A stretch of 35,624 nucleotides of DNA from the IMG/VR virus record IMGVR_UViG_3300025108_000180, positions 1-35,624 of that record; one strand, 5' to 3'. The notes below the pieces were generated by a model. It was not told where the DNA came from, did not search any database, and saw only the letters and a list, made by a program, of their open reading frames with translations. The position numbers and the translations under genes were made by a program. Below are positions 2,083 through 30,800 of this stretch, piece after piece. Numbering within the stretch: position 1 is the first letter of the stretch; every line of letters begins with the position of its first letter. This DNA comes from a virus.

Positions 2083-2574
2083 ATGGCAAAATTAAAAAAC
2101 GAATCAAAACCACCTTTTTACAAGACAGGGCCTATATACCTAACTAGTGATGATCCCACTGGACCTAGTAATCCTAAAGCAACTAAATCTAGTAAAAAAC
2201 CTAGCTTACCAGGCTACCAGCCTCTTGGTGATGCCGATAAAATGAAAGGTAATAGTGTTGAAGCAGAAGCGTTTAATACCATTAACGCTAAGGCTCAAAA
2301 AAAGATAAAAGCAGAGCATAAGCAACGTGATTTAGATACTAGATCTGTAAAAATAGGAGATAAGTTCGGAGTAGGCCATAAGGTTGTTGCTATAAATCCA
2401 GAAACAGGTGCTGTTCTTAGTAGAAAAGGAAATAGATCTACGGTTTATAAAACCTCTAGAAGAGACGCACAAAGATACTCACGATCGATAGGTAGAGGAT
2501 ATACAGCTCCAATTAACCCACAAAAAATAAAATACGACTACGATAGCGCTGGTAATATTTTTGAAAGAAAGTAA
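2083..2574 (+). CDS. Unknown basic protein, possible minor virion protein
   Basis: 163 residues, basic, with a Pro/Lys/Ser-rich first half (residues 1-50, including KPPFYKTGPIYL) that is likely disordered, a charged helical middle (about 55-85), and a more ordered C-terminal part, VKIGDKFGVGHKVVAINPET with GAVLSRKGNRSTVYKTS. That part looks like a small beta-barrel core followed by an Arg/Tyr-rich tail. KPPFYK near the N-terminus resembles the SPFxxK motif of neighbouring small proteins with Ser replaced. No family recognised. Its stop overlaps the holin start by one base (TAATG), so the two are probably translationally coupled. Confidence 0.6.
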   Translation: MAKLKNESKPPFYKTGPIYLTSDDPTGPSNPKATKSSKKPSLPGYQPLGDADKMKGNSVEAEAFNTINAKAQKKIKAEHKQRDLDTRSVKIGDKFGVGHKVVAINPETGAVLSRKGNRSTVYKTSRRDAQRYSRSIGRGYTAPINPQKIKYDYDSAGNIFERK

Positions 2575-2981
2575 TGAAGAAAATATTAGAATTTTTCAGT
2601 ACTAAGGTCTTTAAGCAAGTTGGCGATGTGGTTGACAACCTATTTACCAGCGAAGAAGAAAGATTGAATGCTAGGAATGAAATATTCAAAGTACTACAAG
2701 ATGCTCAACTAGAGCTGCAGAAAATGCAGACTGAGATTATTGTAGCAGAAGCTAAAGGTAATTGGCTGCAAAGAAGCTGGAGACCTATACTAATGCTTTC
2801 GTTTGGTTTTATAATAATATATACAAAATTCATATCACAGTTATCTGTACATTTAGTAACACCTACATTAGAGCCTCAATTCTGGCAATTGCTAGAAATA
2901 GGTATTGGAGGTTATGTAATAGGTAGAAGTGGTGAAAAAATTGTGGACAAATTAGGGCCACTATTCAATAAAAATAAATAA
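2574..2981 (+). CDS. 3TM-type holin (GTA holin family-like)
   Basis: 135 residues. Residues 25-60 are a charged coiled-coil (SEEERLNARNEIFKVLQDAQ onward), then comes the signature WLQRSWRPILMLSFGF, a membrane helix at about 71-92, and a second hydrophobic stretch at about 104-119 with GGYVIGRSGEKIVDKL. This is the layout of the gene-transfer-agent holin family (Holin_3TM), with the W-x-x-R-x-W-R-P motif before the first helix and G-x-Y-x-x-G-R-S-x-E-K after the last. Holins form timed lesions in the inner membrane that let the endolysin out. The M15 peptidase at 33070-33429 is the likely partner, though about 30 kb away. Start overlaps the previous stop (TAATG). Confidence 0.8.
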   Translation: MKKILEFFSTKVFKQVGDVVDNLFTSEEERLNARNEIFKVLQDAQLELQKMQTEIIVAEAKGNWLQRSWRPILMLSFGFIIIYTKFISQLSVHLVTPTLEPQFWQLLEIGIGGYVIGRSGEKIVDKLGPLFNKNK

Positions 2982-2991
2982 AAAATAAAAA

Positions 2992-3237
2992 ATGGGACAA
3001 TACGCAAATCAACCAGATTTCGCCACCTCAGCAGAAACTGTAATAGTTGGTACAACAAATGTAGAGAGCAGTGCGCTTTATATTGGAACAGGTGGTGACA
3101 TAGAAGTAGTTCTTGTAGGTAGCTCATCTTCAGTGGTGTTTAAAAACATACCTAATGGATCTTTTTTACCTGTTATAGTAAGCTCTATCATATCAGGAGC
3201 TAACACTACTGTATCGGATATTATAGCTGTAAAATAA
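2992..3237 (+). CDS. Small beta-rich virion protein, putative
   Basis: 81 residues, hydrophobic/beta-rich, with almost no charged side chains in the core: [36 protein letters not shown] and a [10 protein letters not shown] end. The pattern ([11 protein letters not shown]-x-P-x-G-S-F-L-P-V, then a terminal D-I-I-A) matches small proteins I recall from many marine phages next to tail or decoration genes, whose role is unproven. It lies 10 bases after the holin and immediately before the repeat-containing surface protein. A small trimerising or decoration protein is the best guess. Confidence 0.65.
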
Positions 3238-3238
3238 T

Positions 3239-4228
3239 ATGGGGCTTAGTCTAGGTATAGGTATAGGCGTTAGCGCATCTAATGCTGCTACAGCGGCTAA
3301 TAGGATTGCTGGTAAATCAGCTAGCTATTATTATACAAGTAGTAATGGTAATACTGGTATTGGTGAAAGCAATCTGGAACTTAATAACGAAGGTTTACCT
3401 ATTTTAAATAATAGCAATATTAGACAGGCTATTTTAGATTACGAAAATGGACTACTTGAAGATGTAGAGCTATGGGACGTGAGTAATGTAACTAATATGT
3501 ATAGGTTGTTTTTTCAAACTAATTTTAATTCAGATATTAGTAATTGGGATGTAAGTAATGTTACTGATATGGGGGAAATGTTCTATAGGGCAGTGTATTT
3601 TAATCAAGATATAAGTTCTTGGGATGTTAGTAGTGTGATTATTATGAATTCTATGTTTAGAACAGCTTATTCTTTTAATCAAGATATAAGTAGTTGGGAT
3701 GTGAGTAATGTAACTAGTATGTATCAGATGTTTAAAACAGCACGAGCTTTTAATCAAGATATTAGTTCTTGGGATGTTAGTAGCGTGACTAATATGGGTG
3801 ATATGTTTATGTCTGCGAACACTTTCAATCAAGATATTGGTTCTTGGGATGTGAGTAGTGTGATTTATATGTATGAGATGTTTGCTTATGCCAGTAATTT
3901 CAATCAAGATATTAATTCTTGGAATTTGAGTAATGTGACTACGACGAGAGGTATGTTTAACGGAGCTTTTTCTTTTAATCAAGATATTAGTTCTTGGGAT
4001 GTAAGTAATGTTACAGATACGGAAAATATGTTTTCATACGCAACATCTTTTAATCAAGATATTAGTTCTTGGGATGTTAGTAGTGTAACTCGTATGAATG
4101 AAATGTTTTTATACGCAACTTCTTTTAATCAAGATTTAAGTTCTTGGGATGTGAGTAATGTGACTACTAGATTTATTGATTTTAGTTCTAATGCAACTTC
4201 TTGGACTTTGCCTAAACCAAATTTTTGA
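3239..4228 (+). CDS. BspA-like repeat protein (DUF285-type), possible host-recognition or surface protein
   Basis: 329 residues. After a Gly/Ala/Ser-rich N-terminus ([20 protein letters not shown]) and a linker with [13 protein letters not shown]79 opens nine 24-25-residue repeats of the form W-D-V-S-N/S-V-x-x-M-x-x-M-F-x-x-A-x-x-F-N-Q-D-I-S-S, with a degenerate tenth ending the protein. This is the DUF285/BspA-type leucine-rich-like repeat, known from surface proteins of Bacteroidota and other bacteria, protists and some giant viruses, where it mediates binding. There is no classical signal peptide or anchor, so the phage probably displays it, for instance as a tail adhesin, rather than exporting it. 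The start is at the second base after the preceding stop. The DNA repeats are near-identical, so copy number may vary. Alternative: a moron altering the host surface. Confidence 0.8.
3473..4144 (+). repeat. Tandem 75-bp repeats encoding BspA-type units
   Basis: Nine consecutive units (first 72 bp, the rest 75 bp) each begin at the TGG of the W-D-V-S motif. Stretches such as caagatattagttcttggga recur almost unchanged from unit to unit. A tenth degenerate unit continues to the stop codon. Confidence 0.9.
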
Positions 4229-4255
4229 TATTAAAAATAAATAATATATTCAAAG

Positions 4256-4393
4256 ATGAATAGAATAAAAAACATATTAATTAATCTTGTGTGTAGGTTT
4301 TTAAAATTAATATTTTCAATTAATAAAAAAACAATAAAAGAACAAAGTTATTATAGTGGCTCTGGTATAGGATTAAATAATTTGAATCAATGA
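4256..4393 (+). CDS. 45-residue hypothetical peptide
   Basis: A short open frame from ATG 4256 to TGA 4391-4393, overlapping the start of the next gene (ATGA), which favours a real coupled gene. The first half is hydrophobic and basic (MNRIKNILINLVCRFLKLIF), possibly a membrane-associated helix; the second half is polar, ending YYSGSGIGLNNLNQ. It fills the only sizeable gap between the repeat protein and the glycosyltransferase-like gene. No family recognised, and coding status is uncertain. Confidence 0.4.
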   Translation: MNRIKNILINLVCRFLKLIFSINKKTIKEQSYYSGSGIGLNNLNQ

Positions 4394-5178
4394 ACAAAGT
4401 AGTTTATAGTCAATGGTCAAAGCCAATGAATGATAAATTTGTTGGATTTAACTCTAAGCAATCATTTGCAAATTGCGCTGAGTTATCTGTTTTAAATAGC
4501 AAAAAATGGTTTGATAAAGTAGAACTTGTTACAGATAAAGAAGGTTATAAATTTTTAATTGAAGAGTTAAATTTGCCATTTACAGACGTTAAGGTTGAGC
4601 TTGATTGTTTAAATAACATACCAAAAGAGAATTGGTCAATAGGAAAGTTATACGCTTGTAAAATTCAAGATGAACCTTTTATGCACCAGGATTTTGATGT
4701 TATTTGGTTTAAAAAACCACCAATTAAATTATTAAATGCCCCAGCTTGTTTTCAGAGTATAGAATCAGATGGAAATTTCAATGGATTTTATAGACCATTA
4801 ATGGATGATGCAAAAATAAATAATTATAAATTAAATAAATATTGTGATTTAGATAAATTAAGGGCGTATAACTGTGGTATAATATGTTTTAATGATTTAT
4901 CTATATTAGATAAATGGTACAATTTAGCGATAGATTACATCAAAAAAAATAAATGCCACGGACATTTAAAACCTATATTTTTTGAACAATTTTTAATATA
5001 TAATTTATGTAAATATTATAATTTTAAAGTTGAAACTATTTCATCGCAAGATTGGATTAGTGATGAAGATGCTGCGAAATATGGTTATACACATTTAATA
5101 TCTACATCAAAAAGAGAAGAACATATTGAAAAGCTAGTAGAAAATAAATTAAAAAAACACAAACTTTATTTTGCATAA
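4390..5178 (+). CDS. Glycosyltransferase-like protein (accessory gene)
   Basis: 262 residues. The N-terminus SQWSKPMN with AELSVLNSKKWFDKVELVTD matches the start of a nucleotide-sugar-binding Rossmann-like fold, and MHQDFDVIWFKKPP (D101-F-D103) has the position and form of the DxD motif that holds the metal and sugar nucleotide in GT-A enzymes. The later YNCGIICFNDLSILDKWYNL resembles the acceptor-side region of small glycosyltransferase-like families of Bacteroidota. It could modify the phage's own surface protein (the adjacent BspA-like protein), or host surface glycans to block rival phages. It is AT-rich even for this window and stands in an accessory patch between virion clusters, so horizontal gain is likely. 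No substrate can be named. Confidence 0.55.
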   Translation: MNKVVYSQWSKPMNDKFVGFNSKQSFANCAELSVLNSKKWFDKVELVTDKEGYKFLIEELNLPFTDVKVELDCLNNIPKENWSIGKLYACKIQDEPFMHQDFDVIWFKKPPIKLLNAPACFQSIESDGNFNGFYRPLMDDAKINNYKLNKYCDLDKLRAYNCGIICFNDLSILDKWYNLAIDYIKKNKCHGHLKPIFFEQFLIYNLCKYYNFKVETISSQDWISDEDAAKYGYTHLISTSKREEHIEKLVENKLKKHKLYFA

Positions 5179-5207
5179 TATAAATAAAAAAAATAAAATG
5201 TAAAATA

Positions 5208-5221
5208 ACCTAAGCGTAGGT
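5208..5221 (+). other. Small hairpin in 74-bp intergenic gap
   Basis: ACCTA-AGCG-TAGGT forms a perfect 5-bp stem with a tetraloop in the gap 5179-5252. The remainder of the gap is a run of A/T. It might be an attenuator, processing site or weak terminator before the packaging block; no T-run follows, so I call it only a hairpin. Confidence 0.3.
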
Positions 5222-5252
5222 GATTATATAGGTATAAATTAAATTAAATAAA

Positions 5253-5510
5253 ATGGGAAAATTAACAAACGAACAATTAAAGTCTATTAAAGACGCAACA
5301 GGAAAAATGAATTCTATACTTACAGAGGTAGGATTTTTAGAGGCAAGAAAAGCAGAATACCTAGCAGCACATTTTGAAGCTGCAAAAGAATTAGACGGTA
5401 TCAAAGCTTCAATCAGAAAAGAATATGGTGACATTACTGTAAACTTGGTTGATGGTACTTATGAACAGGCTAAGCAAGTAGAAACAAAAACTCTTGAAAT
5501 AGCAGAATAA
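5253..5510 (+). CDS. Small coiled-coil phage protein, unknown
   Basis: 85 residues, charged and mostly helical: LTNEQLKSIKDATGKMNSIL, then EARKAEYLAAHFEAAKELDG with a coiled-coil spacing, and a C-terminal turn KEYGDITVNLVDGTY. The helix-helix-K-x-Y-G-x-x-x-x-N-L-x-D-G-T-Y arrangement recurs in small proteins near terminase genes of marine phages; no function has been established that I know of. It follows an A/T-rich leader and overlaps the next gene by one base (TAATG). Confidence 0.7.
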   Translation: MGKLTNEQLKSIKDATGKMNSILTEVGFLEARKAEYLAAHFEAAKELDGIKASIRKEYGDITVNLVDGTYEQAKQVETKTLEIAE

Positions 5511-5737
5511 TGAGCTCTGTTGTAAGAAAAATAAGTATAGGTTCTGACTATAAGAATGACGCTATGCACTATTCAGTAGGGCAAGGCGTTTATGGTGGGC
5601 ATACTATAGATTGCATATTACACGATACGCAATCTAATTCTTACAGTATTTACATAAAGAAAGGAAATGAGGTGATGCCATGGAAGAAGTTTAACTCTAA
5701 CATGGCAATATCCGTTGAGTATGATTTAGAATATTAA
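5510..5737 (+). CDS. Small conserved-type phage protein, unknown
   Basis: 75 residues starting at the ATG inside TAATG. It has alternating beta-strand patterns, KISIGSDYKNDAMHYSVGQG, then YSIYIKKGNEVMPWKKFN and a final SVEYDLEY. The combination of G-x-D-Y-K-N-A-M-H-Y and W-K-x-F-N-x-x-M-x-I-S-V-E-Y is one I associate with the pre-terminase region of Bacteroidota and marine phages. No catalytic motif or membrane segment is visible. Confidence 0.65.
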   Translation: MSSVVRKISIGSDYKNDAMHYSVGQGVYGGHTIDCILHDTQSNSYSIYIKKGNEVMPWKKFNSNMAISVEYDLEY

Positions 5738-6343
5738 ATGAGAAGTCTATACGATTTTATTGTCAAGCCTATTGGCGATAGATACGATAACAAAATAAAG
5801 CTAGGCAACGTTACATTAATACTAAATACTAAAATTGAAGACTTTAAGTCTGTAAACAATTTAGCTATAGTAGTTGAAACGCCAAAAGCTTTTAAAACAA
5901 GTATAAAAAAAGGAGACATCATAATAATACATCATAATGTATTTAGAGTTTTTTATGATATCCGAGGTAATAAGAAGAGAAGTAGATCTCATTTTAAAGA
6001 TGACTTACACTTTTGTTCAGCAGATCAAATATATTTGTATAAAAATACAGGGGATTGGAAATCATTTGGAGACAGATGTTTTGTAATGCCTTTAAAAAAC
6101 AAGGACACTTTAAGATCACAAAAAGAACAAGAACTTATTGGTATATTAAAAATAGGTAATAGTTCTTTAAAAGCGCTTAATATCAATCCAGGAGACACGG
6201 TAGGGTTTACGCCTGGTCGTGAATGGGATTTTATAATAGATGATCAAAGAGTTTATTGTATGAAATCTAATGATATTGTAATTAAGTATGAACACAAAAG
6301 ATACCAAGAAGAGTATAATCCTAGCTGGGCAAAAAGCAGTTAA
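5738..6343 (+). CDS. Protein with two GroES-like domains, putative
   Basis: 201 residues directly abutting the previous stop. Two stretches each look like the end of a Cpn10 fold: residues 55-102 (SIKKGDIIIIHHNVFRVFYD, later DQIYLYK) and residues 147-185 (LNINPGDTVGFTPGREWDFI, then DDQRVYCMKSNDIVIKY). The second lines up with the GroES fragment at the left edge: GLNEGDLIYY versus NINPGDTVGF, IEIEGDPYQV versus FIIDDQRVYC, IKMQDIVVVL versus MKSNDIVIKY. A double-barrel GroES-like protein may act as a co-chaperonin cap subunit or a chaperone for a virion protein, but the fold could also be reused as a structural part. The C-terminal tail YNPSWAKSS is probably flexible. The fold call is by eye. 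Confidence 0.5.
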   Translation: MRSLYDFIVKPIGDRYDNKIKLGNVTLILNTKIEDFKSVNNLAIVVETPKAFKTSIKKGDIIIIHHNVFRVFYDIRGNKKRSRSHFKDDLHFCSADQIYLYKNTGDWKSFGDRCFVMPLKNKDTLRSQKEQELIGILKIGNSSLKALNINPGDTVGFTPGREWDFIIDDQRVYCMKSNDIVIKYEHKRYQEEYNPSWAKSS

Positions 6344-6563
6344 GGAGTTAATTAAAGTGGCAGAAGAAAAGATCGTTGACTCAGAAGATGATTTATCAGC
6401 TGACAGACTTAAAAATGCTGCCGCAACTAAAAAATTAGCTATATTCGATGCTTTTGAAATACTTGCTAGAATAGAAGAGGAAGATGAAAGATTAAATGAA
6501 AACCCAAAAGAAGCTAAGGAAGAAAAAGCTTTTAGGGGTTTTGCAGAAGGAAGATCTAGATAA
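6288..6563 (+). CDS. Small terminase subunit candidate
   Basis: 91 residues, nearly all helical and strongly acidic in the second half: GQKAVKELIKVAEEKI, DRLKNAAATKKLAIFDAFEI and LARIEEEDERLNENP. It lies immediately before, and overlaps by one base (TAATG), the large terminase gene. It starts 56 bases inside the preceding gene. The position fits the DNA-recognition (small) subunit of the packaging motor, which sets the genome cutting point, but no clear helix-turn-helix is visible, so the evidence is mainly synteny. Alternative: a small accessory packaging protein. Confidence 0.55.
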   Translation: MNTKDTKKSIILAGQKAVKELIKVAEEKIVDSEDDLSADRLKNAAATKKLAIFDAFEILARIEEEDERLNENPKEAKEEKAFRGFAEGRSR

Positions 6564-8773
6564 TGTACGAACAAACCTTAGTAGCAGTATTAAAAGACTA
6601 TATTAAACCTAAGATATTAAAAAGGTTAAACAGGTATAAGAAATGGGAGTACGGCTATAACGAAGAACATGATGTAGTTGTAATTAGTAGAACTGGACAG
6701 ATAGGAGAGATTTACGAAATACAAGGAGTAAAAATAGCATTGCCAAAAAAAGATGATGTTGTTAAATTTGAAGGAGACAAGTGGAAACACATGGGATACC
6801 CAAAAGAGCTTTCAAAAATAAAATCGGTATTTGATTGGGATGAATACCCTTCACAATTTAAAGAAAAGTGGTATGACTATATTGATACAGAATTTAAAAG
6901 GCGTGAAGAAGGTTTTTGGTTTTTTAATAAAGACAAGCCTTCTTATATTACTGGTACTCACTACATGTACTTGCAGTGGTCCAAGATTGATGTTGGGGCA
7001 GCAGACTTTAGGGAATCAAACAGATTATTCTTTATATTCTGGGAAGCTTGTAAATCAGATGTTCGTTGTTACGGAATGTGCTATCTTAAGAACAGACGGT
7101 CAGGGTTTTCTTTCATGGCCTCAGGCGAAACGGTTAATCAAGCTACAATATCAACAGACTCCAGATTCGGCATTTTATCAAAGTCTGGTCCAGATGCAAA
7201 GAAGATGTTCACAGATAAAGTTGTACCCATCTCGGTTAATTACCCGTTCTTCTTCAAACCAATCCAGGACGGTATGGATAGGCCAAAAACAGAACTCGCC
7301 TATAGAGTCCCGGCGTCCAAATTTACGAGAAAAAAGCTTGATACGAACGAAAAGATCCAAGAGATTACCGGTCTCGATACCACGATCGACTGGAAGAACA
7401 CCGGGGACAACTCGTACGACGGTGAAAAATTAAAACTATTAGTTCACGATGAAAGTGGTAAATGGGAAAGACCTACAAACATATTAAATAACTGGAGGGT
7501 TACAAAAACCTGTTTGAGATTAGGTTCAAAAATTATAGGTAAGTGTATGATGGGTTCAACATCAAATGCTTTAGATAAGGGTGGTGAGAACTTTAAAAAA
7601 CTATATTATGACTCCGACGCAACAAAAAGAAATGCAAATGGACAGACTCGTTCGGGACTCTATAGCTTGTTCATTCCTATGGAATGGAACTACGAAGGCT
7701 ACATTGATTCTTATGGATTTCCTGTATTTGAAACGCCAAAAAAACCAGCTGAAGGACCTGACGGATCGCCTATAAAGCAAGGTGTAATTGAATACTGGAA
7801 CAATGAAGTTGAAGGATTAAAAGGAGATCAAGATGGTTTAAACGAATACTACCGTCAGTTTCCAAGAACAGAGCAACACGCTTTTAGAGATGAAGCAAAG
7901 CAATCTCTGTTTAACTTAACAAAGATATACGAACAAATAGATTATAACGAAGACCTTAGGAATACATCGATAATAACCACTGGAAGTTTTATGTGGGAAA
8001 ACGGTGTTAAAGATACTAAGGTTATATTTGTGCCAAACAAAAACGGTAGATTTAACATTAGTTGGGTACCACCTGTACAAATGCAAAATAGAGTTATAGT
8101 AAAAGGTAATACAAAATATCCAGGTAACGAACACTGTGGTGCTTTTGGGTGTGACAGTTATGATATATCAGGTACAGTTGATAAGAGAGGTTCTAATGGA
8201 GCCTTACACGGTTTAACTAAGTTTAGCATGGAGGATGTTCCGCCTAACAGATTCTTTTTAGAATATATAGCTAGGCCTCAAACTGCTGAGATATTTTTTG
8301 AAGATGTATTAATGGCTTGCATATTTTATGGTATGCCAATACTTGCGGAAAACAATAAACCTAGATTACTGTATCATTTTAAAAGAAGAGGTTATAGAGG
8401 CTTTTCAATGAACAGACCTGATAAAAGATTAAACAAATTATCTATAACTGAAAAAGAAATTGGTGGTATACCAAACTCCAGTGAAGATATAAAACAAGCA
8501 CACGCAGCAGCTATAGAATCATATATAGAAACTTGTGTTGGGCGAACGGAAGCCGGTTATGGTGATATGTACTTTCAAAGAACATTAGAAGACTGGGGTA
8601 AATTCAATATAAACAATAGAACAAAGCATGATGCTTCTATAAGTTCTGGTTTAGCGATAATGGCTTGTAACAAAAACTTATATGCACCGGTTAGCCCAGT
8701 GCAAAAAAAGGTTTACGATTTAGGAATTAAAAGATATGACAATAGAGGTTCTACGTCTAAAATATTAAGATAA
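6563..8773 (+). CDS. terL: Terminase large subunit (packaging ATPase/nuclease)
   Basis: 736 residues. The ATPase half has YLKNRRSGFSFMASGET (about 173-190) as a Walker A variant with the adenine/phosphate Arg-Ser-Gly-Phe-Ser, and KLKLLVHDESGKW (about 288-300) as Walker B with catalytic Glu. FFNKDKPSYITGTHYMYLQW upstream is the usual lead-in. The C-terminal half is an RNase H-like nuclease: HCGAFGCDSYDISG (about 522-536) holds the first acidic residues and TKHDASISSGLAIMA places a late metal ligand at D690. The enzyme docks on the portal, drives DNA into the prohead with ATP and cuts concatemers. The length is near the upper range for the family. Codon and base usage changes sharply at about 7260-7425, between Walker A and B, see findings. 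The portal gene begins right after its stop. Confidence 0.93.
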   Translation: MYEQTLVAVLKDYIKPKILKRLNRYKKWEYGYNEEHDVVVISRTGQIGEIYEIQGVKIALPKKDDVVKFEGDKWKHMGYPKELSKIKSVFDWDEYPSQFKEKWYDYIDTEFKRREEGFWFFNKDKPSYITGTHYMYLQWSKIDVGAADFRESNRLFFIFWEACKSDVRCYGMCYLKNRRSGFSFMASGETVNQATISTDSRFGILSKSGPDAKKMFTDKVVPISVNYPFFFKPIQDGMDRPKTELAYRVPASKFTRKKLDTNEKIQEITGLDTTIDWKNTGDNSYDGEKLKLLVHDESGKWERPTNILNNWRVTKTCLRLGSKIIGKCMMGSTSNALDKGGENFKKLYYDSDATKRNANGQTRSGLYSLFIPMEWNYEGYIDSYGFPVFETPKKPAEGPDGSPIKQGVIEYWNNEVEGLKGDQDGLNEYYRQFPRTEQHAFRDEAKQSLFNLTKIYEQIDYNEDLRNTSIITTGSFMWENGVKDTKVIFVPNKNGRFNISWVPPVQMQNRVIVKGNTKYPGNEHCGAFGCDSYDISGTVDKRGSNGALHGLTKFSMEDVPPNRFFLEYIARPQTAEIFFEDVLMACIFYGMPILAENNKPRLLYHFKRRGYRGFSMNRPDKRLNKLSITEKEIGGIPNSSEDIKQAHAAAIESYIETCVGRTEAGYGDMYFQRTLEDWGKFNINNRTKHDASISSGLAIMACNKNLYAPVSPVQKKVYDLGIKRYDNRGSTSKILR

Positions 8774-11182
8774 ATGAAAATACAAACAAATACCGATAGT
8801 TCTTTTCCTAACCAGGTTGTTAGCGACGAAGTAAAAGCTAGTTATGATTACGGTTTACAAGTCTCTAGAGCTATTGAACAGGAATGGTTCAACCAAGGAA
8901 GGAGTAACGGTAATAGATATTTAAATAATTGGAATAGCTTTCATTCATTACGGTTATATGCAAGAGGGGAGCAATCAATACAAAAGTATAAAGACGAGTT
9001 GTCTATAAATGGTGATTTATCTTATCTTAATTTAGATTGGAAACCTATACCGGTTATATCAAAGTTTGTTGATATTGTTGTAAACGGAATGTCAAACAAG
9101 TCATATGATATAAATGCGTTTGCTCAAGATCCCTTTTCTGTAAAAAGCAGGACTGATTATGCGGCAGCCGTGGAGCAGGATATGAATACAAGACCTATGC
9201 TTGAAAACATTCAGCAAGAATTAGGTATGAATATGGCTCTTACGGGAAACTTAGATCAATTACCTGAAGATAAAGAAGAGTTAGATGTACACTTACAGAT
9301 GACTGCTAAACAAAATGTTGAAATCGCTGAAGAAGAAGTTATAAACAATGTCTTAGAGTTTAACAAATATAACCAAATAAAAAAACGTTTAGCTCACGAT
9401 TTAACAACTATAGGTATTGGGGCTGTTAAAACATCATTTAACAAATCAGAAGGAATTGTTACTGATTATGTTGATCCTGCTAATATGATTTATTCATACA
9501 CAGAGGATCCAAACTTTGAAGATGTATATTATGTAGGCGAGGTGAAATCTATATCTTTATCAGAACTTAAAAAACAATTTCCATCAATATCACCAACTGA
9601 GTTAGAAAAAATACAAGATATGCCGGGTAATTCCCAGTATGTAACTAATTGGGGTAATTACGATGCTAATACTATTCAAGTTTTATACTTTGAATACAAA
9701 ACATATTCAGACCAAGTATTTAAAATAAAGAAAACAGATCAAGGATTAGAAAAGACGTTAGAAAAACCTGACACATTTAATCCTCCAGCTAATGATAACT
9801 TTGAAAGAATATCTAGAACAATAGAAGTTTTATATACTGGTGCAAAAGTGTTAGGTACAAATATTATGTTAGAATGGAAGCTAGCAGAAAATATGACAAG
9901 ACCTACGGCCGATACTACAAAAGTAATGATGAATTATTGTATATCCGCGCCTAGAATGTATAAAGGACGTATAGAGTCTATAGTTAGTAAGATTACTAGC
10001 TTTGCTGATATGATTCAAATAACACACCTTAAACTACAACAAGTAATGTCTAGAATAGTACCAGATGGTGTATTCTTAGATATGGATGGTTTAGCGGAAG
10101 TTGACTTAGGCAACGGTACAACATACAATCCAGCTGAAGCATTGAACATGTACTTTCAAACAGGTTCTGTTGTAGGTAGATCACTTACTCAAGACGGTGA
10201 ATTAAATAGAGGTAAAGTGCCTGTACAGGAATTATCATCTTCAAGCGGTCAAGCAAAAATACAAAGTTTAATAGGTACATACCAGTATTATCTACAAATG
10301 ATAAGAGATGTAACCGGGTTAAATGAAGCAAGAGATGGTAGCGCACCTAGTAAAGATTCTTTAGTAGGGTTACAAAAAATGGCAGCTAACGCTTCTAATA
10401 TTGCAACCAAGCACGTATTAGATTCTTTGTTATACTTAACAGTCAGAACGTGCGAAAATATAAGTTTAAAAGTAGCTGACGTTATAGAAAATCCTTTAAC
10501 GGAGAATGCTTTAACAAACGCTATCAGCACATTCAATACTAAAACTCTTGAGGAGCTAATGAATTTGCAACTGCATGACTTTGGTATTTATTTAGAATTA
10601 GAACCAGAAGAGGAGGAAAAAGCTTTGTTAGAACAAAACATACAAGTAGCTCTACAAACACAATCAATTGCTCTTTCTGACGCAATTGATATTAGGCAAA
10701 TAAAAAATATAAAGTTAGCTAATCAATTTTTGAAGCTTAGGCAAAAACAAAAAATAAAAAGAGAACAAAAACAACAACAAGCTAATATTCAAGCACAAGC
10801 ACAAGCAAATGCTCAAGCGTCTGAAAAAGCCGCAATGGCAGAAGTGCAAAAACAACAAGCACTTACTCAAGAGAAAGTAAGTATAGAACAAGCCAAGTCA
10901 CAGTTTGAAATACAAAGAATGCAAACTGAAGCTCAAATAAAAAGAGAGTTAATGGCTGAAGAGTTTAATTTCAATATGCAGTTAGCTCAAATAAGAGCAA
11001 ATGCGGATGGTGCTAAAGAAAAAGAAATTGAAGATAGAAAAGATAAAAGAATAAAAATGCAGGGATCTCAACAGTCCGAGTTAATACAGCAAAGACAAAC
11101 AGAGGGATTACCTAAAAACTTTGAATCATCAGGAAATGATGTGTTAGGTGGATTCGGAATAGAAGAGTTCGGTCCTAGCTAA
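8774..11182 (+). CDS. Portal protein
   Basis: 802 residues, directly abutting terL (TAAATG), the standard place. The N-terminal part holds RLYARGEQSIQKYKDELSI and YLNLDWKPIPVISKFVDIVV, the clamp/stem lead-in typical of podovirus and crAss-type portals; the centre (about 205-530) is mixed alpha/beta; about 480-520 (SSSSGQAKIQSLIGTYQYYL onward) precedes the long helix. The C-terminal 630-740 is a Gln/Ala-rich coiled coil (ANIQAQAQANAQASEKAAMA), perhaps the barrel or crown that reaches into the head. Twelve copies form the channel at one capsid vertex, through which terminase pumps DNA and to which the connector rings attach. Assignment rests on size, position and sequence pattern. Confidence 0.88.
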   Translation: MKIQTNTDSSFPNQVVSDEVKASYDYGLQVSRAIEQEWFNQGRSNGNRYLNNWNSFHSLRLYARGEQSIQKYKDELSINGDLSYLNLDWKPIPVISKFVDIVVNGMSNKSYDINAFAQDPFSVKSRTDYAAAVEQDMNTRPMLENIQQELGMNMALTGNLDQLPEDKEELDVHLQMTAKQNVEIAEEEVINNVLEFNKYNQIKKRLAHDLTTIGIGAVKTSFNKSEGIVTDYVDPANMIYSYTEDPNFEDVYYVGEVKSISLSELKKQFPSISPTELEKIQDMPGNSQYVTNWGNYDANTIQVLYFEYKTYSDQVFKIKKTDQGLEKTLEKPDTFNPPANDNFERISRTIEVLYTGAKVLGTNIMLEWKLAENMTRPTADTTKVMMNYCISAPRMYKGRIESIVSKITSFADMIQITHLKLQQVMSRIVPDGVFLDMDGLAEVDLGNGTTYNPAEALNMYFQTGSVVGRSLTQDGELNRGKVPVQELSSSSGQAKIQSLIGTYQYYLQMIRDVTGLNEARDGSAPSKDSLVGLQKMAANASNIATKHVLDSLLYLTVRTCENISLKVADVIENPLTENALTNAISTFNTKTLEELMNLQLHDFGIYLELEPEEEEKALLEQNIQVALQTQSIALSDAIDIRQIKNIKLANQFLKLRQKQKIKREQKQQQANIQAQAQANAQASEKAAMAEVQKQQALTQEKVSIEQAKSQFEIQRMQTEAQIKRELMAEEFNFNMQLAQIRANADGAKEKEIEDRKDKRIKMQGSQQSELIQQRQTEGLPKNFESSGNDVLGGFGIEEFGPS

Positions 11183-11187
11183 TAAAC

Positions 11188-11212
11188 AATTATTTAATTA
11201 TATTATATTATG
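11188..11212 (+). promoter_or_regulatory. 25-nt leader, copy 1, ending in the scaffold start codon
   Basis: A/T-only sequence except for the final G of the ATG, identical base for base to 13902-13926. It runs from AATTATTTAATTATATTA to the ATG. It contains no Shine-Dalgarno sequence, so it may be a translation initiation signal, a promoter, or both. Confidence 0.6.
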
Positions 11213-12325
11213 TCAGAAGTAAAACAAGAAGGGGATTTTAAAATCAAATCCAAGAAAACAAGTCCTAAAAATTTAGGCAATCAATCTAGCGAGCCTATAA
11301 AGGTTAACATAGACGAAGTGAAAGAACCAGTAGCTGAAGAAGCTGCTAAGGTAGTAATACCAGATGTCAAAGAAGAGCCTGTTGTAGTCGTTAGCGATAC
11401 ACAGAACGATACTGCACAAGATGGTATTATAGAAATTGTAGAAGAAGAAACTGCTCAAGAGCCTGAAAAAGTTATTGAACAACAAATTCAGCCAGCAGCT
11501 GAACAAAGAGTGTTACCAGAAAACATAGAAAAACTTGTTACTTTTATGGAAGACACAGGTGGAACAGTAGAAGATTACGTTAGATTAAATGCAGACTACT
11601 CAAGTGTTGATGATAAAACACTATTAAAAGAATATTATAAACAAACAAAACCTTATCTAGAATCAGATGACGTTAGCCTACTATTAGAAGACTACGATTA
11701 CGACGAGGACTTAGATGAGGAAAGAGATATACGCAAAAAGAAAATTGCGTTTAAAGAAGAAGTTGGAAAAGCTAAAAGCTTTTTGGAAAAAACCAAGAGT
11801 AAATATTACGACGAAATCAAGTTGAGACCCGGCGTTACTCAGGAACAACAAAAAGCAACAGATTTTTTCAATCGATATCAAGAAGATCAGAAGATAGCTG
11901 AGCAACAGCATTCGGACTTTAAATCAAAAACAAATGATTACTTTACTAATGACTTCAAAGGTTTTGACTTCAATGTGGGTGAAAAAAAGTTTAGATACGG
12001 TTTACAAGATCCTAATAAAGTTGCAGAAAACCAATCAAGTATTAACAATTTCGTAGGAAAGTTTCTTGACGATAGCGGTAATATAAAAGACACGAAAGGT
12101 TATCACAAAGCTATTTACATTGCTTCAAATGCCGACAAGATTATTAATCATTTTTATGAACAAGGAAGAACAGATGCTACTAAAGAAATAGTTAGTAGTT
12201 CTAAAAATCCTAGCGCAGAGCCAAGGCAAACTAGCTCAAGTGAGTTTGTAAATGGAATAAAAATTAAGTCAGTAAGCGGTCCTGATTCTTCTAAAATTAG
12301 AATAAAAACAAAAAAATTTAACTAA
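11210..12325 (+). CDS. Putative scaffold / capsid assembly protein
   Basis: 371 residues between portal and major capsid genes, the usual scaffold position. The first 110 residues are highly acidic and Val/Glu/Pro-rich (KVVIPDVKEEPVVVVSDTQN), with little order; a helical charged core follows (DEERDIRKKKIAFKEEVGKA); about 245-310 has an ordered region, FNVGEKKFRYGLQDPNKVAE and NFVGKFLDDSGNIKDTKGYH; and the end is short and basic (KIRIKTKKFN), as expected for a capsid-binding tail. Scaffold proteins shape the prohead and leave or are cleaved before packaging. No protease motif is seen in it; the nearest phage protease candidate is the HEMVH protein at 1762-2070. Its leader is shared with the gene at 13924. 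Confidence 0.75.
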   Translation: MSEVKQEGDFKIKSKKTSPKNLGNQSSEPIKVNIDEVKEPVAEEAAKVVIPDVKEEPVVVVSDTQNDTAQDGIIEIVEEETAQEPEKVIEQQIQPAAEQRVLPENIEKLVTFMEDTGGTVEDYVRLNADYSSVDDKTLLKEYYKQTKPYLESDDVSLLLEDYDYDEDLDEERDIRKKKIAFKEEVGKAKSFLEKTKSKYYDEIKLRPGVTQEQQKATDFFNRYQEDQKIAEQQHSDFKSKTNDYFTNDFKGFDFNVGEKKFRYGLQDPNKVAENQSSINNFVGKFLDDSGNIKDTKGYHKAIYIASNADKIINHFYEQGRTDATKEIVSSSKNPSAEPRQTSSSEFVNGIKIKSVSGPDSSKIRIKTKKFN

Positions 12326-12339
12326 AAAAAATTAAAATT

Positions 12340-13785
12340 ATGGCTTTAGACCCACAGTTTGGAAGCTTAGTTCCAACACAGAAAAAACAATTACTAGAAG
12401 GTAATTATTTAAACTTTACAGGAGACGCTGCAGGAGGCGATCCAGTAAACAACTTTGCACAACAGTACTTACCAGAAATCTATGAAGCTGAAGTAGAGCG
12501 TTATGGAAACAGAACCTTAGGTGGTTTCTTAAGAATGGTAGGAGCTGAAATGCCAATGACTTCTGATCAAATAATTTGGTCTGAACAAAATAGATTACAC
12601 ATTTCTTATGATAATGTAGATGCGACAGGTGTAGATACTTTAGACATCAATATAGGAGCAGGTGTTGAAAATGTAGTATCACCAGGTTCAACAATTGTAG
12701 TGACTAACGGAGCTACTGGAGCTGAATTAAAGTGTTACGTTACAGCATCTGGAGCATCACTTGGTACTCCAACAGGTATATTGACTGTAAAACCATACAC
12801 TCAAGCTAACTTAGGATTTACCGATCCAGGTGATATCGATTTTGTAACTGGTTCGCCAACACTTAAGATTTTCGTATATGGATCTGAGTATGCAAAAGGA
12901 ACTGGAGATGAAAACAGAATTTCTGTTGAGCCTTCTTTCACTCAATACTCTAACTCTCCTATTATCATTAAGGACAAGTATGCAATCAATGGATCTGACA
13001 CTGCTCAGATTGGATGGGTTGAAGTAGCTACTGAGTCTGGTCAAGGTGGTTTCTTATGGTACTTGAAAGCTGAATCTGAAACAAGATTACGTTTTGAGGA
13101 CTACTTAGAAATGGCTATGGTAGAAGGTGAATTAAAATCGACTACTTCTACTTTAAATGATAAAGTTAAAGGTACTGAAGGTCTTTTCGCGGCTATTAAA
13201 GAGCGTGGAAATGTACTAGATGGATTTGAAGCCGCTAGTGGATTAGCTGACTTTGATGCAATACTTGCAAACCTAGACACACAAGGAGCTATTGAAGAAA
13301 ACATGTTATTCTTGAATAGACAAACTTCTTTAGACTTTGACGATATGTTAGCTGGAGTTGGTGCTGGTTCAGTATATGCTGGTGGTAGTTCTTTTGGTGT
13401 ATTTGAAAACTCTGAAGAAATGGCATTAAATTTAGGTTTCTCTGGATTCAGAAGAGGTTCTTATGACTTCTACAAAACTGACTGGAAATACTTAAACGAT
13501 GCTTCTACTCGTGGAGGTGCTGGAACAAGCGCTATTGACGGTGTATTAGTACCTGCTGGAACTTCTACAGTTTACGATCAAATATTAGGAACTAACATCA
13601 GAAGACCTTTCTTACACGTAAGATATAGAGCTTCTCAAGCTGATGATAGAAGAATGAAAAACTGGATCACTGGATCTGTAGGTGGCGCTGCTACTTCTGA
13701 TTTAGATGCGATGGAGATTCACTTCTTATCTGAAAGATGTTTAGTAACTCAAGCTGCTAATAACTTCGTGTTATTCACAAGCTAG
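12340..13785 (+). CDS. Major capsid protein
   Basis: 481 residues in the scaffold-to-connector gap. The beginning (ALDPQFGSLVPTQKKQLLEG and VNNFAQQYLPEIYEAEVERY) is of the type found in podovirus and crAss-like capsid proteins, and the protein has few Lys-rich low-complexity parts and many Gly/Ser/Thr beta stretches consistent with an HK97 fold. Residues about 85-185 (GVENVVSPGSTIVVTNGATG onward) look like an inserted beta domain, perhaps on the capsid surface. Codon choice shifts towards GGA, TCT, AAC and TTC, as in highly expressed genes. The gene has a simple A/T leader, and a hairpin follows it, which suggests it may be uncoupled from downstream genes to give more capsid protein. Confidence 0.88.
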   Translation: MALDPQFGSLVPTQKKQLLEGNYLNFTGDAAGGDPVNNFAQQYLPEIYEAEVERYGNRTLGGFLRMVGAEMPMTSDQIIWSEQNRLHISYDNVDATGVDTLDINIGAGVENVVSPGSTIVVTNGATGAELKCYVTASGASLGTPTGILTVKPYTQANLGFTDPGDIDFVTGSPTLKIFVYGSEYAKGTGDENRISVEPSFTQYSNSPIIIKDKYAINGSDTAQIGWVEVATESGQGGFLWYLKAESETRLRFEDYLEMAMVEGELKSTTSTLNDKVKGTEGLFAAIKERGNVLDGFEAASGLADFDAILANLDTQGAIEENMLFLNRQTSLDFDDMLAGVGAGSVYAGGSSFGVFENSEEMALNLGFSGFRRGSYDFYKTDWKYLNDASTRGGAGTSAIDGVLVPAGTSTVYDQILGTNIRRPFLHVRYRASQADDRRMKNWITGSVGGAATSDLDAMEIHFLSERCLVTQAANNFVLFTS

Positions 13786-24871: not shown

Positions 24872-27800
24872 ATGCCAGTAAAAAGATATGAAGTTGACGG
24901 TAATCCTTATGATGTATCTGATGCTAAAGAACAAGAGTTTTTAAATAAATTTAGTAATGCTGTTTTGATAGGTGTTTTAGATGAAGAGGGTTCGGTTGTA
25001 GAGCAGGAAAAGAAAGACGAAGTGCAGGATTTTCCAACAAGCACTCCAGCGGATGCGGATGTAGTGCAGCAACCAATGACAGCATCACAAGCAGGTTTTA
25101 CGGAATCACCTTCGGTAGATACTCCTTCGGAATCACTAGATCCTAAGCCTAAAAGCAAAAAATTAATTGAGCTAGAACAAAAATTAGAAAAAGCAAAGAC
25201 TTTTAGGACAACAATGAAAGGTCAAATAATTGCAGACCTAAATGATGAAATTGAAATTGAAAAAAATTTAGCTACACCTGAGGGTAAACAAATAGCTAAT
25301 GACTTTAATTCTTCTGTTGATGCTATCTTTAATACAAACATTCCTTACCAACTAGAGGAAGGGGTAGTTTTTAAAGATCCTATTGAAGGACAAAGCATGA
25401 CGGAGTTAAATAAAAATCCTGAATGGAGAAATGCTTTAACAGATAAAATTACAGATAGTTATTATAGACTAAATCCTAGTCAGCCTGCTCCTGCAGAAAG
25501 CACCATAAATACTATTGTGAACGCAAGAATAGATACTGAACTACAAAAAGAAAAACAGAAAATAGACGCAGCAAGAAGCAATGTAATTCAAGACCTGCGT
25601 GATAATAAAAGATACACAGCTACAGTAGAGTTAGGTGTAAAAGACTACTCAGAGAGTCTTTCACCCCAACAAAAAAACATAGCTGATATGAATTCTCGTG
25701 CAAAAAAGCTAAGAGATATAAAAAATAACGGTACTACTTTAGAAGCCGCTAAAGCCTCAGAGGAGCTAAATAAATTATCTAAGGAGGCTGGTGATGCTTT
25801 AAAAGATTATAATAAAAACTTTCAATACTGGGTTGACCCTGCTACGGGTGACAACATGTCTTTGTCTCAAAAAGAAAAAGATATGCTTACTAATCAGTCA
25901 CAGCCAAAAAGTTTAAAAAAAGAAATAGACGCTAAAACTGATCAATACAAAAAATCAACTGCTACTCAACTTGAGGAAGCTTTTGTTTTAAATGTATTAG
26001 AAACACAAGACAATGCTAAAAGAAAAAATCGTATTGTAAAATTAAAATCATCATTTTTTCCATTAATAAATATTTTATCAGGTAAAGGATATAAACCTAA
26101 TGAAGACGGTGTTTATGAGGTAAAATTTCAAGATTTATTACCTTTAAGAAATATAACAGACATAGACAAAGAATTAAGTAAAGCAACCACTTTGGGATCA
26201 AAAGAGACAACTCTTGGACAAGGCGGTATGAAAGATATGCTTGATGATTTATATAAAGATAATATAAGATTAAATATAAACAAAGAAGCTCTAACAAATG
26301 CATTCATATTAAATATAGATCCAGCTAGTATGAAAAGCTCGGGTATAGGAAAAGTTGGGGATAAAATAGGTGAATTTGCAGGAGCATTAAGTACAGCTGT
26401 TATAGGGGAAGATCTAACTAAAAGTATAGGTACAACTCGAAGAATGGAGTTGGATGCGTTAGAGGAGCTACAAACAGATTACGGTATAGATATGTCTAAA
26501 TCCCAACGGGAGAATTACAGAAGATCGTTATCTACTCAAGTAGCAGAGGGCTTAGGGGGATTTGTTCCTGAAATTGTTAAGTTTGCAGCGTTAAATGCTG
26601 TTACAGGGGGTACTTTATCTGCTACTAAATTTGGAGCTAAAATGGCTAAGTGGCTTAAGCGTACTAAAAACTTTACCCCTACTAGGCAGCAACAAACTCA
26701 AAGTTTTATTTATCATGCTCTTTTAGAAGAAGCTAAATTTAAAGCGGTAACAGGCGGCGAGTCACAAACAGGTGGTGGTGTTGGTTTTTTTGCAGGTGGT
26801 CAATTAGCAAATAAACTATTAAGCAAGTTTAAATTCAGTGGAAAATCTCAAGTTCTTGAGCCGGTTTTTCAAAAAATGATTGCTCCAGGTGTTGGGGGTA
26901 TGGTTGGTAGTAATGCAGCTTTAATTACAGAAGAAGCGTATAAATCTTTAACAAGTAATGTGGATTGGAAAAAATTCATGCACGAAACCTACGGTAACGT
27001 TTATTATGATAAGATAACAGGAGCTTTACTATCTGAAGAAGAAATAGAAAAAAGAAAGAAAAGCGGTGATGCAGGTACAATGGAAGATCACAGTAAAGGT
27101 TTTGAAAAGTTAATTATAGACCTTTCTATGTTTGCTGCTCCGGGTGCTACAAAATTAAGATCAATAGATTTTATGAGTGTTGCTAAAAAAAGAGCAAACT
27201 TTTCAGACGCTGTTAGATTATTAGATGAAACAAACGCGGATGGTGAATTTAAATTAAAAGGTAAAGAAAGAACTCAAAAGGAAAACTACGCTTTAGAATT
27301 AGAAAGTAGTTTATTAAGAGCTGATAATTCGTTTTATAAAAAAGATGTAGGTAAATTAACTGAAGAAATAAATAATGCTAGATCTAAAATTAATGAAGGT
27401 AATATTTCAAATAGAGAAAAAAGAATTTTAGAAAAAGAAATTATTGTTGCTGAGTCAAAGATTGAAATGACCAAAGCTGGCATTAAAAAATCTTTTAATA
27501 ATATAAAAAAATCAGGCGTTTTTCAATCTAAAGGTAAAACACCTGTATTAAAAATAATAAGAAACGAAAAAGAACCTAATGCTCTAGATGGTGATAAGGC
27601 TCGATATTTTCCTGAATCAAACGAATTCCAAGTTGATTTATCAAAATATAAGCCAGGTGTTTTTACTCAAGAAGTGGGGCATGCTTTAATGGATTTAGCT
27701 TTTAAAAACAATGAAAGCGCTGCAAAGAAATTTAAAGAAAGCATTGAAACAACAGTAAATAAAGCTTTAGAAGGAGAACGATTTGGCGAGTTGGGAGATA

Positions 27801-30800
27801 TGACTTTTCAAGAAATTATTAATGAAAAGTATTCAGATAAAAAACAAAGACCTGAAGAGTATGTAATGAATATTGCAGAATTTTTACAAAATCCTAAATT
27901 TAAAGATTTACTTTTAAGTAAAGGTTTATTAACTGGAATAAACAGAACAGTTAAAGAAACTGCAGGTAAATTTGGTATTGATCTATCTTCTAAAAAACCT
28001 TTAGAGCTTGGTGAAAAAAATATAAACAGAGCAAGCGATCTTTTAGAATTTTTATATGATCTTGGTAATATAGAAAAAGGTGGTAAAAATATTTCTAAAC
28101 AATTTGAAAGATTTTCTAATGTAGAAATTGATGGTAAAAAATTGATAGATTTAGAAACAGGTATTGAAATTAAAACCGAAGCAGAAAGACTTAAAGATTT
28201 TTCTTCTAAAGAACTAGAAAGTGATAATAAAGATATATTTAGCAAGGTAAATAAAGCTTATAAAGAAGGTATTGAAAACAATCAAAACATAGAAACAACT
28301 GGTGTAATGATTGGTTTTGAATATAGACCTATTGTCTTAAAAAAAATAAGAAGATATATAGATAAAAATAATCTACAAGTAGCCAGTGATGTACCTGAGT
28401 TACTTGCGGACGCTGTAATTATGGACAAAAACGGTGTTCCTGGAATAGTAAGAAGTTACTCTGACGGTCAGAAAGTTATTAAATATATTAAAGAAAACAA
28501 TCCAAGCAAACAAGAAATTCAAGATTTTGCTAAAGAAAACGGTATACGTGAAATAAGAAGCCAAGAAGGAGCATCTAGATTAGATAAACTTGAAGCAATG
28601 GCTAAAGGAACTAAACCGGAAGCTACCTTAACATCAATGATCACCGGTGACGTAGACAAACGTATATTAGGTATTATGCAAAAACCTGAATATGCACAAG
28701 AATTTGGAGCAGTTAGGTTTGGTGGATTGGAAGAAAACAAACAAGAACAAATAATAAAAAAATCCGACAGCGGAGAAGGTAGCACAGCTTTTTTAGACCT
28801 AGCTAAAAATGATAGAGTTTCAAGAAAAACCGCTATAGCGGTATCTAGATTACCTGAAGATATAAATAAAAAAGCAACCGATATAGCTGAAAAAACATTA
28901 TTGCAAAAATTTCCTAAGCTAGGTGCTAGAACTTTAGGTAAAGTTAAACTTAAGTCAGGAGAAGAAGTTACTTATGCCTTGTTTAGAAATACTGCAGATG
29001 TAAACATAGGAGGCGAAACTTTTAACATTAAAGCTAGAGGTTTTAAAGATATAAATGATTACTTAACTAGTAAAGGTTTAGCTGCTGAAGGTAAGCCTAG
29101 TAAACTTAAAAACTTTAATCAATTCCAACAAGAAGCTTTTAAAGTAAGTTTATTCAACGAAATAGAAAAAGTAGCTGGTAAACTTAAAGGAGGAGGTAAA
29201 GTGCCGACACCTGAGTATAACATGTTTTTAGACAATACGTTTAAATTATACAAAAATTATATAAGTCAGTCTAGTATAAATAAAAGATTTAATATATTTT
29301 CAGAACCATTAATAGATCCTAAAACAGGTAAACAAGTTAGAGAGTCTTCTGATCAAGGTAATCCTGTATTTAAGAAAAAAAATATAACACCTGCGGAATG
29401 GAAAAAATATTTTGGAGGAGATGGCACAGGTACTGAAAGATTAGATGGTAAAAGAAGATCTCTTATAGAAACTATATCTATGGAAATAGGTAAAGATGCT
29501 ATAATGGAAAAATTAGAATCTGATACGTTTAAAAAAATCGTACAAGAAAGACAAACCGAATTAGGTAATGAAGTAGGTGAAAACTTTATATCAAAAATTT
29601 CCGTTGAACTAGACAGGTTACCCTCAGGCGAAATGTCTAAATCTTTTTCTTCCGTAGATCTATTTAATAGAGTTAAAAAAATACCTAGGTTAGCTATTAA
29701 AAATGAAAATGAATTTAGAACTTTAATTAACCAGTATAACAGAGGTGAATTAGATAAAGATATTACAATACTCATTAAAGAAAAGGCTACAGAATCTTTT
29801 ATTAATACAACTAAAGCTAGAGAATTAATAGCTGAAAATGTTAAACAAGCTATTGGACAAGGATTTTTAAAATCTGAAACAGATATTAATATAAGGTATA
29901 ACGAAAAATTAGGACACAATAATAAGTTACATAAAGAGTTTAGAGACGAAGCTAAATCAACATTAGAATTAATACCTAGAGAAGTTTTAGAATTGCAAAA
30001 AACATTTTCAGGCGAAAGAGGTTATATTATTGCTGAGACTTTTGGATATGATGGAGGTATGGGGAAATCTACACAGCAATTTATAAAAGATTTTGATAAC
30101 ATTTTAGGAAGCAAGGCTGATAATTCTATATGGAAACCTGTTTTTAACTTAATAAAAAAGAATAAACAAAAGTTTTTTGCAGAAATTTCTGGAGGTTCTA
30201 ATAAAACAGGAGTGGGACAAGCTAAGCTAATTATTAAAAATAATGAATTATCTAATTCTGAAAAAATGAAGGGAATAGATAATATATACGAGGAAAGCTT
30301 AAAAGACTCAAATGAACTAAATACTGTTTATCACAACGCTATTATAAAAAGTTTATATAAAAGTTTAAACACTAAGTATGAAGGTAATCTTTCTGAAAGG
30401 ATAAAAGCTGTAGAAAGGTTATCGCCTATGATAGCTCAAAATAAAAGATTTGGATTTAGACTTGCGTCTCCGTTTACTATATTTGAATTAAATCCAAAAG
30501 GTGGTTTTTCTAATGAGCATTTAAAAGAATCGGTGAAATATAAATCAGACTTAATAAATCTACTAAAAAAGGAAAATATAGATATTGATAGCGAATTAAA
30601 AAGAATAAACACAGGGTATGAAAGCGCTCTTGTGGACAATACTTCTAGAACAGCAGCTGACAGAGCTTTGGGTAGTGTTTTTTCTCCAGAAATGAAATCT
30701 TATTTAAAACTTATTGGGCCTGATGCTTTAGTATTTACTGCTCCGGAGATAGCTAATAAACTAAATAATTTTTATCATGCTCCCTCTAAAAAATTGTTAG

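Follow-up and report, generated by a model that had tools for sequence, protein, structure and literature searches.

A DUF285 repeat protein behind a spike-base homologue: a probable head-spike fibre in a crAss-like phage fragment

What place, and what job, might a DUF285 repeat protein have in a phage? Proteins of the DUF285/TIGR02167/PARCEL kind are described, in the available text of PMC2996958, as membrane or lipoprotein surface proteins of bacteria and protists. The DNA studied here, called the window, is one whole virus record of 35,624 bases and, judged by its sequence matches, is a fragment of a crAss-like phage. Family matches in PHROG were obtained for TerL, for the portal and capsid genes and for those of the ring type, and the first 169 residues of a 1399-aa ORF match the crassvirus muzzle (crAss_MUZ, E 3.2e-13). 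Relatives of the capsid were found in 85 phage records, of phages of Flavobacterium, Cellulophaga and Maribacter and one further phage; some of these Cellulophaga phages are classed in Crassvirales. By sequence matches, relatives of muzzle, TerL, portal and capsid stand in order, as in members of that group. The features at issue are as follows.

2973..5236, no strand assigned: stretch holding the base, fibre and DUF6734 genes, absent at this place in contig L113, which aligns at window 2565-2972 and 5237-12619
2992..3237, plus strand: 81-aa homologue of a head-spike base protein, predicted six-strand jelly-roll-like fold (profile, AlphaFold2, Foldseek, VIA-align)
3235..3241, plus strand: TAATATG junction, in which the base-gene stop codon and the fibre-gene start are separated by a single nucleotide (read directly)
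3239..4228, plus strand: DUF285 repeat protein of 329 aa, predicted head-spike fibre (PF03382, E 7e-106; TIGR02167, E 8.3e-51)
3242..3271, plus strand: predicted anchor peptide, residues 2-11, hydrophobic at 3, 5, 7, 9 and 11
3272..3451, plus strand: linker and N-cap region, residues 12-71, common by tblastn to L028 only among the compared loci
3452..4198, plus strand: DUF285 array, an offset first unit and then, starting at 3524, nine more that each measure exactly 75 bp (repeat alignment)
4390..5178, plus strand: DUF6734 protein of 262 aa (PF20508, E 1.5e-44)

A preliminary description of this DNA had reported a DUF285-type repeat frame with nine units at 3239-4228, and the family searches bore this out. 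The protein scored 348.9 bits against PF03382 (curated cut-off 25) and 169.1 bits against TIGR02167 (cut-off 30), the latter in nine stretches; ten units were counted in all, nine of them at an exact spacing of 25 aa (75 bp) and preceded by the first, offset unit. Tandem Repeats Finder placed a 75-bp array at 3523-4166, with 8.6 copies and 72% matches. An AlphaFold2 model of the whole protein reached a mean pLDDT of 81.5 and a pTM of 0.79, with residues 1-42 and 316-329 below 50; the region of the anchor peptide is poorly determined in it. VIA-align gave SHOC2 as the best row (Z 16.2, rmsd 3.6, 243 aligned). Since 287 of the 336 rows reached Z 8, this alignment speaks to a repeat solenoid and to no function; in a plain Foldseek search the best row for the model had E 0.28, so that none came up to E 0.001. 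The array is predicted from the model to form an LRR-like solenoid.

Nine 25-aa units above curated cut-offs are what the window protein has in common with the described DUF285/TIGR02167/PARCEL proteins; it differs from them in standing behind a spike base. The dyad symmetry in coding DNA that marks PARCEL elements was sought by counting inverted seeds against shuffles, a procedure other than the MEME procedure of Roske et al. 2010, and no excess of inverted repeats was observed: seeds of 7, 8, 9 and 10 bp numbered 6, 2, 0 and 0, against shuffle means of 9.9, 2.6, 1.3 and 0.3. Palindromic DNA in the array was rejected on these counts, and the gene is therefore filed as DUF285/TIGR02167 and not as PARCEL at the DNA level. 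A long antisense frame is reported for many PARCELs; in the window gene the opposite strand holds an open frame of 167 codons (shuffle mean 108.6), a length reached by 4.2% of 500 synonymous shuffles.

The gene immediately upstream gives the locus its meaning. A single-sequence search of the PDB with its 81-aa product returned 8cjz_h, named 'Spike Base Protein', at E 0.047, and a profile built from 26 homologues matched the same chain, from the Carin1 capsid, at E 5.2e-6; the match of this profile to Rcc01079 of the gene transfer agent RcGTA was at E 1.1. The AlphaFold2 model (pLDDT 87.7) was then compared with solved structures. The top two of 993 Foldseek rows in the PDB were 8cjz_h (TMq 0.77, E 1.9e-3) and 6tb9_A1 from the RcGTA capsid (TMq 0.69, E 3.2e-3), both with probability 1.00, and none of the PDB rows reached E 0.001. 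VIA-align ranked the same two proteins first, 8cjz_h at Z 10.2 (rmsd 2.8, 79 aligned, 25% identity) and the RcGTA base at Z 10.0 (rmsd 3.1, 77 aligned); the third row, the turret protein of the archaeal virus STIV, stood at Z 5.1. In BFVD, nine unannotated phage proteins matched the model at E 0.001 or better, and proteins of Dinoroseobacter phage R5C and gut phage cr112_1 matched at weaker E values. The TAATATG junction recurs in the cultured Flavobacterium phage elemo 6-3D, between the base gene gp41 and gp40, and in ctfjg026, between the base homologue and the next ORF. No match to the base was found in the record of Maribacter phage Panino.

The N-terminus of the DUF285 protein has hydrophobic residues at alternate positions (L3, L5, I7, I9 and V11), with S, G, G and G between them. 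According to the available text of PMC7296036, the RcGTA head spike consists of a base pentamer seated on capsid pentamers with a single fibre plugged into it, and residues 2-10 of that fibre, I-A-L-G-L-G-L-G-L, take the shape of a five-point star, held by hydrophobic pockets that number five; base and fibre are the products of rcc01079 and rcc01080 (PMC7296036, and PMC8601537 as far as its text is available). We expressed the pattern as a register, in which at least four of positions 3, 5, 7, 9 and 11 are hydrophobic while positions 4, 6, 8 and 10 are not, and looked for it in slot proteins, meaning ATG ORFs of at least 30 aa that start within 5 nt of a base gene; such an ORF was present at 68 of 89 base loci. 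The register was found at 26 of these 68 loci. Counted by unique proteins, it occurs in 23 of 57 slot proteins and in 20 of 4201 control ORFs, and counted by distinct 11-mers in 18 of 29 and 18 of 3277; because the rule was drawn up after examples had been seen and the sequences are related, the Fisher value for these counts is not a true probability. An earlier, stricter pattern gave 12/57 against 2/3297, and a loose one 17/57 against 54/3297. Elemo gp40, which lies outside the compared set, also carries the register directly behind its base.

Several counts weigh against reading the slot as a spike site. The register is missing from 34 of the 57 unique slot proteins; a single family, starting MNW and failing the register, occupies 25 of the 68 loci; 21 of the 89 base loci have no ORF of 30 aa starting within 5 nt of the base; and in ctfjg026 the register is lacking from the 48-aa ORF that follows the base. 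A PDB sequence search with the first 25 residues of the window fibre returned no match up to E 10. At 18 loci an ORF of 44-51 aa lies between the base and a large fibre, and only four of these ORFs (L037-L039 and L149) have the register. ORFs of 44-50 aa that adjoin the base directly and are followed by a large fibre occur in L033-L039, L067-L069, L071, L073, L077-L079 and L149; they may possibly be spike plugs without a body.

The locus thus combines a jelly-roll base related to Rcc01079 and 8cjz_h, an adjoining fibre gene and an alternating N-terminus, and we consider the DUF285 protein a probable head-spike fibre of the capsid, with its LRR-like DUF285 domain as the binding part. The computed steps behind this reading are the homology and fold of the base, the gene order, the register, the LRR-like solenoid and the swapping in the slot; to these we add, as inferred steps, presence in the virion, vertex position, a five-to-one stoichiometry and a binding target. 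By analogy with RcGTA, the 81-aa protein would form a base pentamer on the five-fold vertices of the capsid. The first eleven residues of the fibre would thread into five equivalent pockets of that pentamer by way of positions 3, 5, 7, 9 and 11, and each spike would carry one fibre. In the solenoid, the conserved half of each unit might hold the fold while the variable half forms the binding face, whose target would probably be a host surface or capsule polysaccharide. In the available text of PMC10218006 a tagged RcGTA fibre binds capsulated cells better. The spike proposed here could aid attachment of the phage to its host. The preliminary description had suggested a part in surface recognition. 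The position of the gene, 1 nt behind a spike-base homologue, and its RcGTA-type register support that suggestion, and do so along a line more specific than the one first put forward.

The parallel with the RcGTA head spike (Rcc01079 base, Rcc01080 fibre; PDB 6tb9/6tba/6tsu/6tui, and described in the text available to us) covers base fold (the Z 10.0 above), base-then-fibre gene order and an N-terminus of alternating hydrophobic residues and glycine. The differences are that the register begins at residue 3 in the window protein and at residue 2 in RcGTA, that the outer part of the window protein is a DUF285 solenoid, that RcGTA is an alphaproteobacterial siphovirus-like agent whereas the window comes from a crAss-like phage, and that the two bases are joined in sequence only at E 1.1. 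By profile and by Z the Carin1 spike base (PDB 8cjz chain h) is the closest solved relative of the 81-aa protein; neither a sequence of the Carin1 fibre nor a paper on it was among the literature matches listed. Within the crassviruses, the available text of PMC10172136 describes gp21 and gp29 of PhiCrAss001 as head fibres, and these likewise decorate the capsid through short N-terminal segments. They differ in being bound to hexon pockets, as a trimer and a dimer, with no base protein. The crassvirus head fibres known so far sit on hexons and not on vertices (PMC10172136, same portion), which counts against a head spike here. With their BACON tandem repeats, crAss-like phages offer a further case in which repeats of a bacterial surface domain have been taken up as an array at the C-terminus (PMC6949934, available text); these domains are Ig-like and belong to gut phages, where they lie close to the tail genes, whereas the DUF285 units lie behind a spike base.

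The jelly-roll could instead be a tail adaptor, and the DUF285 protein a receptor-binding protein mounted on the tail. PHROG 12296 (E 0.0021) and a RefSeq record do label homologues of the base 'tail fiber protein', Peptidase_S74 fibres lie nearby in relatives, and DUF285 units are found at the ends of proteins in muzzle position. However, the base has only two solved relatives, both well above all other rows, and both are capsid head-spike bases; the register, moreover, is that of the RcGTA fibre and is unlike known trimeric tail-fibre docking. We regard a place on the tail as improbable.

A place outside the virion seems very improbable. The infected cell would then make the protein and export or display it, a block to superinfection being one possible use, in the manner of the surface lipoproteins by which DUF285 is defined in mycoplasmas. 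DUF285 is indeed best known from cellular surface proteins: cellular genomes yielded 83 stretches matching the window protein, and the best 80 of these, with up to 61% identity, came mainly from Bacteroidetes; the runner-up among NCBIfam matches, under its cut-off, is a lipoprotein family. Yet none of the best 80 of the 83 includes residues 1-10, the earliest starting at residue 11. The window protein also has no obvious export signal as judged by hydropathy only, its first 12 residues having no net charge and its most hydrophobic 19-residue stretch reaching 1.14, and its gene abuts that of a virion-protein homologue.

That the adaptive variable is the copy number of a recently expanded, fast-changing array, as the preliminary description had it, is scarcely credible: the inter-unit codon identity of 0.73 (expected 0.48) and the ten units in the window against five in L028 favour it, whereas the units are 55-83% identical, the array runs without a gap through two near-identical contigs, and units are far more alike at other loci. 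The repeats had been called near-identical at the DNA level. Over 75 bp their pairwise identity averages 70%, so that near-identity does not hold; within a unit, the leading 42 bp, coding for the conserved 14-residue half, average 86% and the last 33 bp 51%. At residues shared between units, codons agree in 342 of 466 cases, above the 0.48 +/- 0.035 expected from the codon usage of the phage, and the units therefore share ancestry. Across 84 loci having a minimum of five units, some near-duplicate contigs among them, the window ranked 12th in mean identity, 32nd in best pair and 6th in codon identity; pairs at least 95% identical were found in five other loci of the 84. Contigs L112 and L005 align to the window at 99.94% (7 mismatches in 12,183 bp) and 99.98% (1 in 6,151 bp), gapless across the array. 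With these two and the five units of the distant relative L028, the array appears stable over short spans and different in length over long ones. Near-identical repeats and recent expansion were rejected on unit identity, on L112 and L005, and on the other arrays; a change of length between strains is likewise unsupported. Near-identical units do occur in cellular DUF285 arrays, with a mean of 82% in L199 and a best pair of 100% in L229, and recent expansion is better illustrated by these than by the window array.

If not by copy number, how would such a spike adapt? Under the head-spike reading, the phage would adapt to its host chiefly by exchanging all of the fibre that follows the anchor. 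The distance from the base to the next conserved gene varies from 50 to 5,535 bp among relatives (79 of 145 loci show both genes), and the slot is occupied by nothing, by short proteins, by a 175-aa family, by large fibres or by DUF285 proteins. In a Pfam scan of ten proteins, which included one (L016) from outside the slot and left three with no family, the large slot fibres carried Peptidase_S74 in L039 and L068 and Laminin_G_3 in L036. Six unique slot proteins have DUF285, five with the register and one (L103) failing it. A PKD match is present in L099, L103 and L111, above the cut-off in L103 only, and L131 has a marginal PKD_4 match (E 0.0089). Relatives differ most in the entire portion of the fibre that comes after its N-terminus. 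A tblastn search with residues 1-75 against all compared loci recovered only the window copies and L028, at 49%. In L113, whose TerL is 98% identical to that of the window, the stretch 2973..5236 is absent at this place; the contig begins inside a fibre gene, and another DUF285 gene lies directly behind a Peptidase_S74 fibre.

A third setting is found in L016, L019 and L020, where proteins of 2.3 kilo-residues in muzzle position (from 2505 or 2523 to 9347) end in about 14 DUF285 units. The muzzle domain matches of L016 and L020, at 25.1 and 21.7 bits, are under the Pfam cut-off of 27, so the assignment leans partly on gene position, and L019 was assigned only by its N-terminus. These proteins are, from sequence and position, possible muzzle-mounted adhesins.

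DUF285, which had earlier been called uncommon in phages, occurs in 114 of 50,697 phage records at E 1e-5 and in 10 of 44 related viral records, a hand-chosen set with many fragments. A recognisable base accompanies it in only 2 of 27 viral records with DUF285 genes, so phage DUF285 proteins are mostly not spike fibres. That phages carry DUF285 as such is already known: ORF 200 and ORF 287 of the jumbo phage vB_VhaM_pir03 were reported in 2020, the former 19 kb long, and the available part of that report assigns it no function and proposes no head spike (PMC7765460). The two DUF285 proteins that the accessible text of PMC7507832 places in virions of the algal giant virus AaV are a precedent for DUF285 as a virion component. 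One annotated case was set aside. Elemo gp34 (NC_055853.1; L192 11231-11704), entered as 'DUF285 domain-containing protein', has no visible repeats and no Pfam family at E 0.01, so elemo was not counted as a DUF285 phage; on this sequence the label is likely a misannotation.

A wider proposal can be framed, though only tentatively and at somewhat short of even chances. DUF285 might be a plug-in adhesion module of crAss-like flavophages, used at three sites on the virion: at the vertices by way of a five-point star peptide (the window, L028, L099, L103, L111 and L131), next to S74 tail fibres, which it follows in L113, and at the muzzle (L016, L019 and L020). The vertex spike would then be an exchangeable receptor slot with a constant base and a short anchor, widespread and unannotated in marine phages. 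Neither a DUF285 head spike nor a crAss-like head spike was among the literature matches listed, in which subscription journals are thinly covered. If the head-spike reading holds, repeats that go by the name 'Mycoplasma protein of unknown function' would gain a concrete place and job in the phage particle, many unannotated phage proteins that start like MGLGIGIGIG could be read as vertex-spike anchors, and the RcGTA-type head spike would extend to crAss-like phages of marine Bacteroidetes. The capsid, besides the tail, would be a place where host attachment evolves through the swapping of modules. Phage elemo, with base gp41 and register-bearing gp40, offers a cultured representative.

Downstream of the fibre, the DUF6734 gene had been described as glycosyltransferase-like and as a possible partner of the fibre. 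Both assignments are putative. The only family matched by the protein is PF20508, which is of the DUF type, and the sole PDB sequence match of the protein up to E 1 was a hydroxylase (E 0.028). Among the compared loci the gene is present only in the window copies and in L028, beside the same type of fibre, so that the pair of fibre and DUF6734 genes recurs there; the L028 copy is 72.5% identical, against 49% for the fibre N-terminus, and the neighbour is thus the better conserved of the two.

Further observations concern the rest of the window and its relatives. A 2733-aa ORF at 24872-33073 occupies the place of the crassvirus cargo protein and has no NCBIfam match at E 0.01. On the minus strand at 34321-35421 a ribonucleotide reductase alpha subunit is represented by its C-terminal portion, the frame continuing to the end of the window. 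GroEL-like genes lie close to the fibre region in L113, L123 and L180 (read as L279, L280 and L281), and elemo and ctfjg026 carry annotated GroEL and GroES.
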